Below, one piece after another: positions 3,170-30,591 of a stretch of DNA of 64,000 nt. Under the pieces are notes generated by a model that was given only the letters and a program-made list of their open reading frames with translations, was not told the origin of the DNA and did no database searches. Each line of letters begins with the position of its first letter. Position 1 is the first letter of the stretch. The stretch covers positions 1,488,001 to 1,552,000 of the forward strand of contig BCIO01000002.1 in assembly GCA_001599975.1 (NCBI GenBank), read 5' to 3'. Source of the stretch: Cystobasidiopsis lactophilus. Lineage: Eukaryota; Basidiomycota; Agaricostilbomycetes; Agaricostilbales; Chionosphaeraceae. A program made the position numbers and the translations under genes.

Positions 3170-5300
3170 ATGTTAGATGTCGTCGAGGCTACGATCGCCC
3201 AGGCTGCTGATGCCTTATCTGCTGGCTCGACGACGAGTGTGGAATTGACTGCTCTGTGTCTTGACCGGTTGGCGGCTTACGACCGACAGAATGAAGCGCT
3301 CAACTCCACGCCATTGCTCAATCCTGGGGCTTTCGAGCAAGCTGCGCAGTCGGACGCCCGGAGGAAAGCTGGCGCTAAGCTGGGCTTGCTGGAAGGCATT
3401 CCGTACACTGCCAAAGACTCCTACTCTGTCAAAGGCATGACTGTCGCATCCGGGTCGCCTGCTTTTGTGGATCTGGTCGCCAGCTATGATGCGCATCTAA
3501 TCGAGAAGCTGAGCGAGAACGGGGCTGTTCTTTTGGGAAAGACCAACATGGTGAGTCCCTTTGATTTGCTCGTAGATCAGAACCTGAGTCGTCAGGTCAG
3601 CCTCCCATGGCAGCGGGTGGAATGCAGAGGGGTGTTTACGGAAGAGCCGAGTCGCCTTACAACAAAGACTTTTTGGCTGCCGCCTTTGCTTCCGGCTCTT
3701 CGAACGGCTCTGGAGTGTCCGTTGGCGCATCTCTTGGCTTCTTTGGTCTCGGAGAAGAGACTGTCAGCTCTGGGCGCTCGCCAGCGTCCAACAACGGCCT
3801 TTGTGCTTACACGCCCTCGCGTGGCGTCATCAGCCTCCGTGGCAACTGGCCGCTGTTCCCCTCTTGCGACGTTGTGGTGCCTCACACTCGAACGACGGAA
3901 GATCTATTTGCGCTGCTCCGAGTGGCTTGCATCCCGGACCCAAAGACCGCTGGCGACTTTTGGAGAGAGCAAGAGGCGGTCAAGCTGCCCCAGATCACCC
4001 TGCCATTCGACTCTTTGGCGAACCCCAATGCTCTCAAGGGGAAGAGGCTCGCTGTGCCTAAGATGTACATCAACAAGGACGACTCGCAGGGCATCGTAGT
4101 CCGCGACTCAATCATGCAGCTGTGGGCGAGAGCAAAGGCCGACCTGGAGGCGCAAGGGGCAGAGGTGGTGGAAAGCGATTTCCCTGTGATCGTGGCGTAC
4201 GGCGGCTATCTCGAATTGGACAGCGCGTATCTGCCAGCTCGGTGGAACAATCTGGAGAACCAGGCTCTAAGTCAGTGGCCTCGGTGCAAACCCCCTCCCT
4301 AGAACGAGATCGCTGATTCTGTGACGCTTCTCAGTTGGTTTGGGCTGGAACCGGTTCCTGGAGCTCAACAACCAGCCTGGCTGCAACAAGCTGACCGACG
4401 TCTCGCCATCTATGATCTTCCCGAGGCCGCCGGGTGCCTTAGAAGATAAAGCAGGCGGAACGGTGTACCCCTATGCAGAAGTCTTCGAGGCGTCGCAGAA
4501 GGGACCGTATTCCGCTCTACCTGGATTTGCCGAGGGCTTGCAAAGGCTGGAAGACCTCAGGAAGAGCGAGTTCGAGGACTGGCTGGACAAGAACAAGTTT
4601 GATGCGGTTGTGTTCCCCGCCAACGCAGACGTGGGCCCGGCCGATGCTGATACGAACCTGGAGAGCTCTGTCAAAGCGTGGAAGAACGGCGTCTTCTTCT
4701 CAAATGGCAATCGCGTCATTCGCCACCTTGGCATGCCTACCTCAAATGTCACCATGGGTGTCATGGAGGACACCAAAATGCCAGGTCAGTCTTTTGGTGC
4801 ACGATTTCACGCCCAGAAAGCTGACAGCGTCTGCCTTAGTCAACCTCACTTTTGTTGGCAAAGCCTACGACGACGCCCAGCTTCTCTCATACGCTTATGC
4901 CTATGAGCAGCAGTCTAAACGCCGGGAGGCCCCCAAGCTGACTCCCGTCTTGCCGCCTCGAACTTGGAGCGCCACCATCTCGCCCGCATCAACGGGCACC
5001 TCGCCCATCTCCATTTCCATTGACATGGTGCCCTCTTTCCAAGGCAACCCACTTCTCGCCATCACGCTCGAATGCTCTTCGGCGAAACGAGTCTCGGTCA
5101 CGTCTAATGGCCTGCCGGTGAACTTCAAGTTCGAAGGCGGAAGCTGGAAAGGCGAGTGCGAAGCCCTGATGCCGCCGCCGCGCCGAGAAGCGGAGAGGGC
5201 TGTTCCAGAGTGGTCTCCTGCCATGATCGTCGCCATCGTTGAACACAGCGATGGCACGAAGACGGGCAAGACGCTTCATCTATCAGAGATCTACGCCTGA
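3170..5300 (+). CDS. Amidase (amidase-signature family)
   Basis: Predicted amide-bond hydrolase of the amidase-signature fold. The family landmarks appear in order: the Lys region IPYTAKDSYSVKG (about residue 80), the glycine/serine block ASGSSNGSGVSVGASLG, and GEETVSSGRSPASNNG with the probable nucleophilic serine. The GEET..SGR..A..N form is closest to the allophanate-hydrolase-like branch of the family rather than to acetamidases, so the substrate is open. Introns are inferred after GKTNM (3551 to about 3604), near 4270-4334 and near 4786-4840. The C-terminal region after VNLTFVGKAYDD is a separate small domain ending HLSEIYA at 5300. Divergent from TAF10 with about 285 bases between start codons. 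Confidence 0.88.
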
Positions 5301-5472: not shown

Positions 5473-7149
5473 ATGGCTTCCCTAGCAGACTCGACTGCGT
5501 CGTTGTCTGTCTCTGAAGTGTCGTCTTCGGCCGCTTCGAATGCAGAATCGGAAACGCCTGCCACCTCGGTGGCTTCACAAGCCGGCAAGGCGCCTCGCTC
5601 ATACAGGTTCGCCACGCTGGTAGCTTCGGTGTACGCTTGCTTGACCTCTTTGACAACTGCCTATTGTACTCTGCTTACTCCAAAGACTCGCAGAGACAAC
5701 CCAGATGCCAACCACCGGGATCAGCACGGGAGCTCGAGCGTGAGTACTAATTGCCCCAGCGAGTCAACAATAGCAAGACCTGACGTGCTTCCCTTGCGCT
5801 TGCTAGGTGCCCATCTACCAAACCGCCACTTTCAAGGGCATGGGCGGCGAGTACGACTACTCTAGGTCGGGCAACCCAACCCGCAAGTTTTTGGAGAACC
5901 ACATCGCTAAGATCTCGTCTGCCCGCCACGCCTTTGCCGTCTCCTCTGGAATGGGTGCACTGGACGTTATCTTTCGCTTGCTGAAGCCCGGCGACGAGAT
6001 CATCGCTGGTACGTCGGGAATCGCCAGCTCAATGCTTTTGAGCCTCGACTCACTTTAGGCCCGGGCAGGCAACGACTTGTACGGAGGTTCCAATCGCCTA
6101 CTGACCTACCTCAAGGCCCACAATGGCATCACCACTCACCACATCTCGACCACTGATCCCGCCAACTTCTTGCCGTACCTGACCAAGGCCGACTCGAAGG
6201 TCAAGATGGTCTTGCTGGAGACGCCGACGAACCCGCTGCTCCAGATTGCCGACCTCTCGGCCATCGCCGACTTGGTCCACAGCCACCTTCCTGAAGCGCT
6301 GATCGTCGTCGACAACACCATGATGAGCCCTTACCTTCAGAGGCCGCTCGAGCACGGCGCGGACCTGGTCTATGATTCGGGCACCAAATACCTTAGCGGC
6401 CACCACGATCTCATGGCCGGTGTGATCGTGTGCGACAGAGACGATGTGGCTAAGGTTCGTCACAATCCCAAATCTCTTTACCCGACGCCAATCCTGAAAA
6501 GGATCGCCATAGGGGATCGCGTTCACCATCAACTCTGTGGGCAACGGCCTGGCGCCTTTCGACTGCTTCTTGCTTCTTCGCGGCACCAAGACCTTGGCGC
6601 TGCGTATGGATCAGCAGCAAAAGTCGGCCCAATCCGTCGCTGAATATCTCGACAATCTCGGCTTCCTCGTCCACTTCCCCGGTTTGCCGAACCATCCCGG
6701 CAAAGAGACGCACGACAAGCATGCAGCAGGTGCTGGTGCGGTTCTGAGCTTTGTGACCAACGACAAGGCCTTGAGCGAGAGGATCGTGGCCGCCACTCGA
6801 CTTTGGGGCATCTCCGTCTCGTTCGGCTGTGTGAACAGTTTGATCAGCATGCCCTGCCTCATGTCGTTCGTTTCATCCCTCACTACGGCATAGCGTCCTT
6901 CTCTGACTACCTTGGCTTCGCAACAGGCATGCTTCCATCGACCCCGCGGTGCGCGCTGCGCGAAACCTGCCAGAGGACCTCATTCGACTCTGCGTGGGCA
7001 TCGAGGACACAGAAGACTTGATTGACGACCTAGAGGCTGCCCTACTCGAGGCCGGCGCCATTCGCGTCCAGCCGGACGGCAGCAAGGCGCGAGTCACCTC
7101 GGCCCAAACTCCGGTCCCTCCCCGACATCTGCCTTTGCCGTCCGAAGAG
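5473..7149 (+). CDS. STR3: Cystathionine beta-lyase (N-terminal half of an apparent fusion)
   Basis: PLP-dependent Cys/Met-metabolism enzyme that splits cystathionine to homocysteine, pyruvate and ammonia. Seen: VPIYQTATFKG, the YDYSRSGNPTR phosphate-binding segment, DLYGGSNR, the VVDNTMMSPY aspartate, and YDSGTKYLSGHHDLMAG with the PLP lysine; SGHHDLMAG is typical of STR3-type beta-lyases. The C-terminal LIRLCVGIEDTEDL is also standard. Introns fit at 5740-5806, around 6009-6067, 6456-6508 and 6870-6927; a further one near 5623-5690 is likely. Start taken at ATG 5473. No stop codon follows the enzyme: the frame runs on through a ~25-residue Pro-rich linker into mevalonate kinase (next entry), so 5473-8696 probably encodes one protein. 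7149 is only the domain limit. Confidence 0.85.
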
Positions 7150-8696
7150 ATGCACTCCATTGACCAGCTGGTCGTTTCTGCGCCTGGCAAAATCATCCTG
7201 TTTGGAGAGCACGCTGTGGTTCATGGGCATGTAAGCTGTCCTGCCCGGGCGCTTTTCTTTAGCTCGGCTGATCGCCAAGTAACAGCTCGCTGTTGCTGCT
7301 GCTCTGGGGCTTCGATGCTACTGTCTGGTCGAAGCTCGAGCCGACAAGAAGATCTCATTGAGCTTGCCCGACATCAATGTCGACCGTACCTGGGAGACGG
7401 ATGACCTGCCGTTCCCTTCCTTGCCAGTCCCATACTCCGACACACCAGATCCGAAATTGTTGGCCAAAGTGACCGCCTTGGCCTCCGTAGGCGAGAACAC
7501 CATCACCAACAATGCCGTCCTTTCCTTCCTATACCTGTATATTTGCTTGGGCAAGCGTTCATCGTGGGTTTCCCTTTCTTCTGATCCACAGCAGGCTCAA
7601 ACGATCTGTGTTCTCTGTAGACGCGGCCTTTCGTTTGTTGTTCGTTCGACTCTGCCCGTCGGTGCTGGCCTTGGTTCCTCGGCCGCCTACTCTGTTTGCA
7701 TCGCCTCTGCTCTGCTTCACCTTCACGCCCGTCTCGCCATCCCCAATCACTCCAAAATAATTAACGACGAGGCCATCCACCAGGGGCGCCGAGCCATCTC
7801 GCACGAAAGCGCCAAAGTCATCAACCAGTGGGCCTTCGTGGCGGAGAAGATCAACCACGGAACTCCTAGCGGCTTGGACAACACGGTGGCGTCCTACGGG
7901 GATGCCCTGACCTTCCAAAGGACCGGCTTGCCCACATCACCCATCAAGATGGACGTCATCCACGGCTTCGGTAGCTTGCGCTTCTTGCTGACCAACACCA
8001 AAGTGCCGCGCGACACCAAGACCCTGGTTGGACACGTCGGGGAACTCAAGCAAAACGAGCCGGAGCGCATTCAGAGCGTATTCGACTCGATTCACGAAAT
8101 CTCGGCGGAAGCGAGGCGGACCCTCACCGACGCGGATCTCGCCAGACCCACCCAGATTTGTGTGCTAGAGGTTCGTTCCTTGCACTCTATCGGCCGGAGC
8201 GATGTGAAACTCACGCTCGCGGCTGCAGAAATTGATCAAAAAGAACCAGGAGCTCCTGGACCAACTAGAAGTTTCCCACCCCGCTCTCGAAACCGTTCGC
8301 GTCAAAACAGCCGCCTCGCCTTACAACTTGAGCACTAAGCTCACCGGCGCTGGTGGCGGAGGATGTGCAGTCACTTTGATCCCAGATGGTGCGTTCGCTA
8401 CTTGCCCGGTTTTAAGAATGGACTGCTCATTGACATTCATTCAAATCTGAACAGGCTTCCCACAGGCTCAACTTGAAGCGCTCAGAGAAGAGCTGGTCTC
8501 GAGCGGCTTCGAGTGCTACGAGACATCGGTCGGCGGCTCTGGCTGCGGCATGTGGCTGCCGGTCGGCCAGCCCAAAGCAGAGCTCGCTGAGGGAGGATCA
8601 GAGGCGGACGTCGTGCCTCTCAGGAAGCGCTTCTTGTCCAGCCCAGCGCAGGACTTGGCGGACTTTGTTGGGGCGGAGCAGTGGCAGTTTGTGTAG
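7150..8696 (+). CDS. ERG12: Mevalonate kinase (C-terminal half of an apparent fusion)
   Basis: GHMP-family kinase phosphorylating mevalonate in the isoprenoid/sterol pathway. Motifs in order: SAPGKIILFGEHAVVHG, the ATP-binding LPVGAGLGSSAAYSV, HGTPSGLDNTVASYG with the catalytic Asp, and the C-terminal KLTGAGGGGCAVTL. Length matches the family. Introns fit at about 7231-7285, 7562-7620, 8170-8228, 8388-8453. An ATG at 7150 sits exactly where a stand-alone kinase would start (MHSIDQLVVSAPGK), but the frame is open upstream without a stop into cystathionine beta-lyase. Either the two are one bifunctional polypeptide, or internal initiation or proteolysis separates them. Stop TAG at 8694-8696. 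Confidence 0.9.
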
Positions 8697-30047: not shown

Positions 30048-30069
30048 TTTTTTTTTTTTTTTTTTTTTT
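30048..30069. repeat. T22 homopolymer next to unresolved bases
   Basis: Run of 22 T. Unresolved n bases at 30020, 30044, 30046 and 30047 sit just before it. It pairs with an A26 run at 30425-30450 that has an n at 30457. Read as poorly resolved homopolymers at a small inverted duplication. Confidence 0.8.
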
Positions 30070-30119: not shown

Positions 30120-30202
30120 GCTGTCATGGGGTAGTGGTAACCTATATCCTTGCCATTCCAGTGTCACCTGGATATGCCGCGAGTTCGATTCTCGCTGACA
30201 GC
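30120..30202 (+). tRNA. tRNA-Gly(GCC) with 13-base intron, copy 1
   Basis: Complete cloverleaf. Acceptor stem GCTGTCA/TGACAGC; D-arm with GGGTAGTGGTAACCT typical of glycine tRNA; anticodon stem TATCC/GGATA with loop TTGCCA(intron)T; T-arm GCGAGTTCGATTCTCGC. Anticodon GCC. A 13-base intron (TTCCAGTGTCACC) sits one base 3' of the anticodon, the canonical position. Internal A box and B box (GAGTTCGATTC) are intact. T-rich tracts about 45-65 bases downstream could end Pol III transcription. Confidence 0.93.
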
Positions 30203-30331
30203 AGAGTTTAGCACCGGTTCTCGCACTACGCGAGAACTGGGCCATTCTTTTTGCTCATTGTTTCCTTTTTTGTTCCTGCAACGGAGCTCTTCTGGCTCTT
30301 CCTTTTGCGCCAATAATGAGAAACGAACATC

Positions 30332-30424: not shown

Positions 30425-30450
30425 AAAAAAAAAAAAAAAAAAAAAAAAAA
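30425..30450. repeat. A26 homopolymer
   Basis: Run of 26 A, flanked on the left by AAAATGGAAGGCAGAGAGGC, which is an inverted near-copy of the sequence right of the T22 run at 30070-30100. On the minus strand it lies about 60 bases downstream of tRNA copy 2 and could act as a Pol III terminator. Confidence 0.75.
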
Positions 30451-30508
30451 GAAGGANAGACTCCAAAAAGACATGCCAATTCTCGCGGCGAGAACTGGTG
30501 CTAACTTT

Positions 30509-30591
30509 GCTGTCAGCGAGAATCGAACTCGCGGCATATCCAGGTGACACTGGAATGGCAAGGATATAGGTTACCACTACCCCATGACAGC
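30509..30591 (-). tRNA. tRNA-Gly(GCC) with 13-base intron, copy 2 (inverted)
   Basis: Same 83-base gene as copy 1 on the opposite strand, including the 13-base intron, the anticodon GCC and both internal promoter boxes; I see no differences between the two copies. The 3' flanks are also related: both carry a hairpin with (A)GTTCTCGC..GCGAGAA(C/T)TGG. The two genes point toward each other and form a large inverted repeat. Confidence 0.93.

Follow-up and report, generated by a model that had tools for sequence, protein, structure and literature searches.

A spliced reading frame joining cystathionine beta-lyase to mevalonate kinase in Cystobasidiopsis lactophilus, most likely another copy of the basidiomycete metC-MVK fusion

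Results

In a window of 64,000 nucleotides from Cystobasidiopsis lactophilus (the whole stretch of contig BCIO01000002.1 that was analysed), positions 5473-8696 of the forward strand hold a cystathionine beta-lyase and a mevalonate kinase in one spliced reading frame. We assign a probability of about 0.93 to the reading that this is one gene, giving rise to one bifunctional lyase-kinase protein, and that this protein is the metC-MVK fusion of Basidiomycota. The first-pass annotation had proposed that both enzymes lie in one open frame and that the locus could make a bifunctional protein; the first proposal holds, and with two complete enzymes in that frame the second is its simplest reading.

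Gene Structure

The sequence was modelled as one gene with ten exons and nine short GT-AG introns (Table 1). When spliced in this way, the frame runs uninterrupted from the ATG at 5473 to the TAG ending at 8696, that is, over 2679 nucleotides and 892 amino acids. The introns are 55-67 nucleotides long, all nine begin with GT and have G at position +5, and they end with CAG in six cases and TAG in three. Eight of them were placed by eye, guided by the continuity of conserved protein blocks, and then checked by translation, while the intron at 5631-5693 was picked from 11 in-frame options for the look of the N-terminus of fungal lyases. The first junction is thereby the least certain part of the model: when this intron is left unspliced the frame is likewise open, with 914 residues including the stop, and the point of fusion is untouched by the choice.

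Table 1. Features of the lyase-kinase gene, in positions of the window
Feature	Positions	Strand	Basis
Whole lyase-kinase coding region, 10 exons, 892 aa	5473..8696	+	Stop-free spliced translation
Exon 1, N-terminal extension	5473..5630	+	Model
Exon 2, start of lyase domain	5694..5739	+	Spliced translation
Exon 3, lyase	5807..6008	+	Spliced translation
Exon 4, lyase, SGTKYLSGH motif, Lys242 at 6386-6388	6069..6454	+	Aligns with SATKFIAGH of 1ibj
Exon 5, lyase	6513..6865	+	Spliced translation
Exon 6, junction exon: lyase C-terminus, linker, kinase N-terminus	6927..7230	+	Single open frame
Linker, residues 426-456, 6 Pro in 31	7057..7149	+	Between end of TIGR01329 match (425) and Met457
ATG (Met457) at usual kinase start, G at -3	7150..7152	+	Spliced translation
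Exon 7, kinase	7286..7563	+	Spliced translation
Exon 8, kinase: GLGSSAA (Ser596), Glu651, Asp662	7621..8170	+	Matching residues in aligned 1kvk
Exon 9, kinase, TGAGGGG motif	8229..8388	+	Translation, 1kvk alignment
Exon 10, kinase C-terminus and stop TAG	8455..8696	+	Spliced translation

Identity of the Two Halves

The N-terminal half scores 517.5 bits with TIGR01329, the model of eukaryotic cystathionine beta-lyase (curated cut-off 487.5, residues 59-425), and the C-terminal half scores 218.9 bits with TIGR00549, the model of mevalonate kinase (curated cut-off 163.05, residues 467-809). The remaining 23 among the best 25 of 52 matches are models of related PLP enzymes, each of which scored under its own cut-off. 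In the Pfam search the lyase half is covered by PF01053 (residues 59-421, 414.4 bits), with PF00155 barely above its cut-off inside the same half (20.5 against 19.7). The two GHMP kinase domains are weak matches, the N domain with 35.9 bits (cut-off 22.3) and the C domain with 21.2 (cut-off 21), and PF10509 stayed under its cut-off.

Among solved structures in the Protein Data Bank, the best relative of the lyase is the cystathionine beta-lyase 1ibj (E 1.5e-107, positions 47-420 of a query of 456) and that of the kinase is the mevalonate kinase 1kvk (E 2.3e-76, positions 6-390 of 436). In the alignment with 1ibj the lysine of the SGTKYLSGH motif is kept, and we take this residue, Lys242, to be the one that binds PLP. 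In the alignment with 1kvk, Lys470, Ser596, Glu651 and Asp662 are kept, and these are presumably the residues with catalytic roles in mevalonate kinase. The protein thus has the domain and the lysine motif of a eukaryotic cystathionine beta-lyase, from which it differs by the kinase added at its C-terminus; it has likewise the domain, the GLGSSAA motif and the aligned active-site residues of a mevalonate kinase (1kvk, 2r3v), from which it differs by the lyase added at its N-terminus. Judged from these motifs and alignments, neither half looks decayed.

The Junction

The C-terminus of the lyase and the N-terminus of the kinase share exon 6 and its frame with no stop between them, while each of the other two frames of this exon contains two stops. 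The linker is proline-rich and longer than the approximately 25 codons of the first-pass annotation: 52 codons separate 'EDTEDL' from 'SAPGK' in the modelled protein, and the lyase match, which stops at residue 425, is followed by 31 residues before Met457. The ATG for Met457 does stand exactly where a kinase is expected to start, as had been pointed out.

The linker has a GC content of 0.67, higher than the flanking stretches of intergenic DNA (0.47 and 0.55), and a GC3 of 0.71, similar to the lyase (0.78) and the kinase (0.68). As the linker has few codons, this composition is a slight indication that it is coding. By chance alone, a spacer of 28 codons between tandem genes would be in frame and free of stops with a probability of about 0.10 if it were composed like the intergenic DNA on either side, and of 0.19 if it were composed like the linker; a factor of 1/3 for frame is included in both figures. 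Since such an event is not very improbable, the open spacer is weak evidence when taken alone, and does not serve as the main evidence. The case for a fusion is made instead by the lack of a separate stop for the lyase, by a single splice model that serves both halves, and by the conservation of the fusion as published.

Consider then the situation where the two enzymes are made from separate genes, with the stop of the lyase supplied by an unseen intron or by an early 3' end of its transcript. To find introns of this kind, all GT-AG pairs of 45-200 nucleotides with a donor within 6985-7230 were computed, which gave 82 pairs. The donor has G at +5, as in all nine introns of the model, in 24 of them, and these 24 were inspected. 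With the seven pairs from donor 7140 and eight of the nine from donor 7200, the lyase would stay whole but gain a foreign tail, and the kinase would be broken; the pair 7200-7262 (63 nucleotides, ending in TAG) also fits the model introns in length and acceptor; but donor 7140 has C at +3 and donor 7200 has G at +6, neither of which occurs in any of the nine. Three of the eight pairs from donor 6994 (to 7082, 7093 and 7147) would stop translation at residues 431-475, yet at the cost of the conserved C-terminus of the lyase; with the intron at 7231-7285 retained, translation would stop at residue 541. None of the 24 inspected pairs gives an intact lyase that ends before the kinase ATG, and the hidden intron was rejected as a candidate. 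As the fusion has, in addition, been published across basidiomycetes (PMC3342255), separate genes are very improbable here. Donors 7140 and 7200 may nevertheless be used in a minor isoform, in which the lyase would carry a foreign tail and the kinase would not work.

Alternatively, two tandem genes may look fused because an error of sequencing or assembly erased the stop codon that separates them. A single base change would suffice for this, and an undetermined base does occur elsewhere in the window (30457); but order, pairing and size equal those of the fusions described in PMC3342255 and PMC4129116, and among the explanations weighed here we regard such an error as the least probable.

There is, finally, a case that is compatible with a bifunctional protein, namely that the locus yields, besides the full fusion, a kinase on its own, whose translation begins with the ATG at 7150, either on a transcript from a promoter within the lyase or by internal initiation. 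The exact position of this ATG, with G at -3, would favour a second product, but it can equally be explained as a relic of a formerly separate kinase. Between the first ATG, which itself has A at -3 and G at +4, and Met457 the spliced message contains 16 further ATGs, nine in frame and seven in a second frame, from which follows that leaky scanning as far as Met457 is unlikely. A free kinase would, moreover, leave the lyase joined to a kinase, as the lyase has no stop of its own. We consider an additional free kinase unlikely, though less so than separate genes.

Discussion

Relation to the Published Fusion

The lyase-kinase fusion is real but not new. The first-pass annotation was aware of no enzyme in which these two had been described together; the name metC-MVK was, however, coined by Liu et al. 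in 2012 for proteins of 12 basidiomycetes with a mean length of about 886 amino acids (PMC3342255). The paper further states that metC-MVK is absent from the non-basidiomycete species examined and from Laccaria bicolor, that seven of the 12 species carry a 16-residue insertion in the kinase, and that the authors, by inference, place the origin of the fusion in the ancestor of Basidiomycota. In later papers, a fusion of 918 amino acids is given for Lignosus rhinocerotis (PMC4129116), a mycelial unigene (transcriptome contig) with both domains for Pleurocybella porrigens (PMC3720577), and the fusion transcript Psang01106 for Pycnoporus sanguineus, its biological relevance being called unknown (PMC3846667).

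The introns and the proteins suggest a fungal origin of the DNA. Compared by published descriptions, the protein of C. lactophilus does not differ from metC-MVK in any feature stated in the texts of these papers: the lyase is N-terminal and the kinase C-terminal, both are in one frame, and the length is 892 amino acids, against a mean of about 886 and 918 in Lignosus. A recent or species-specific fusion, the former having been among the options first raised, was rejected because of the spread over 12 basidiomycetes reported in PMC3342255. The gene at 5473-8696 is most likely another copy of the old basidiomycete fusion, and adds one genome to a fusion that has been in print since 2012.

Other searches returned nothing further. 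In a collection of viral contigs, not meant for fungi, there were nine pattern matches for relatives of the kinase and 12 for relatives of the lyase, and in a collection of genome contigs, likewise not meant for fungi, there were 37 for the whole fusion; none of these was confirmed. The literature search found no paper on the lyase-kinase pairing in connection with Cryptococcus and none for the Ustilago maydis gene number, and the consulted parts of PMC13412983, PMC8058980, PMC4393869 and PMC11121823 do not mention the fusion.

What the Fusion May Do

Most likely, the gene is translated into a single polypeptide with two independent active sites, where each half keeps its usual reaction. The N-terminal half would then act as a PLP-dependent cystathionine beta-lyase, converting cystathionine to homocysteine, pyruvate and ammonia, and the C-terminal half as a mevalonate kinase, converting mevalonate to 5-phosphomevalonate, with a short and probably flexible linker connecting the two. 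The two activities and the single polypeptide in the cell are predictions made from the open spliced frame, the family assignments and the conserved motifs. The simplest effect of the fusion would be that an enzyme of the methionine pathway and an enzyme of the sterol pathway are made in a fixed ratio.

The two reactions have no metabolite in common. An indirect link goes from methionine over S-adenosylmethionine to the methylation of sterols: homocysteine feeds S-adenosylmethionine, which is the methyl donor for ergosterol precursors. Relatives of cystathionine beta-lyase are tetramers. It is conceivable, but rather doubtful, that the fusion persists for the coupling that it provides between the supply of methionine and the synthesis of sterols, in which case the lyase half could set the assembly or the feedback control of the kinase. 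If such coupling exists, basidiomycetes have a physical link between the methionine and sterol pathways. That the fusion is conserved may mean that a fixed ratio is useful, or just as well that two enzymes which are both needed are hard to separate after they have been joined. The reason for the fusion is left open in PMC3342255, PMC3720577 and PMC3846667. According to the first of these, the basidiomycetes analysed have no mevalonate kinase homologue other than metC-MVK, so that knowledge of the reason for its retention would bear on the engineering of sterols and carotenoids in such fungi.

Other Features of the Window

At 4443-5300, on the same strand as the fusion and with its end 172 nucleotides before the fusion's ATG, lies an open reading frame that by eye resembles the C-terminal part of an amidase. 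Farther downstream, the window contains an inverted pair of tRNA genes, at 30120-30208 (+) and 30503-30591 (-), which are 99% complementary over 89 nucleotides and have 294 nucleotides between the arms. ARAGORN, in its bacterial setting, reported neither copy. Each copy has an Rfam match of 84 nucleotides to a model of 71 positions, from which follows that a small tRNA intron is probable. Upstream of the first copy there is a poly-T run (30050-30069); a poly-A run (30425-30450), with the undetermined base (N) right after it, is situated between the two copies.
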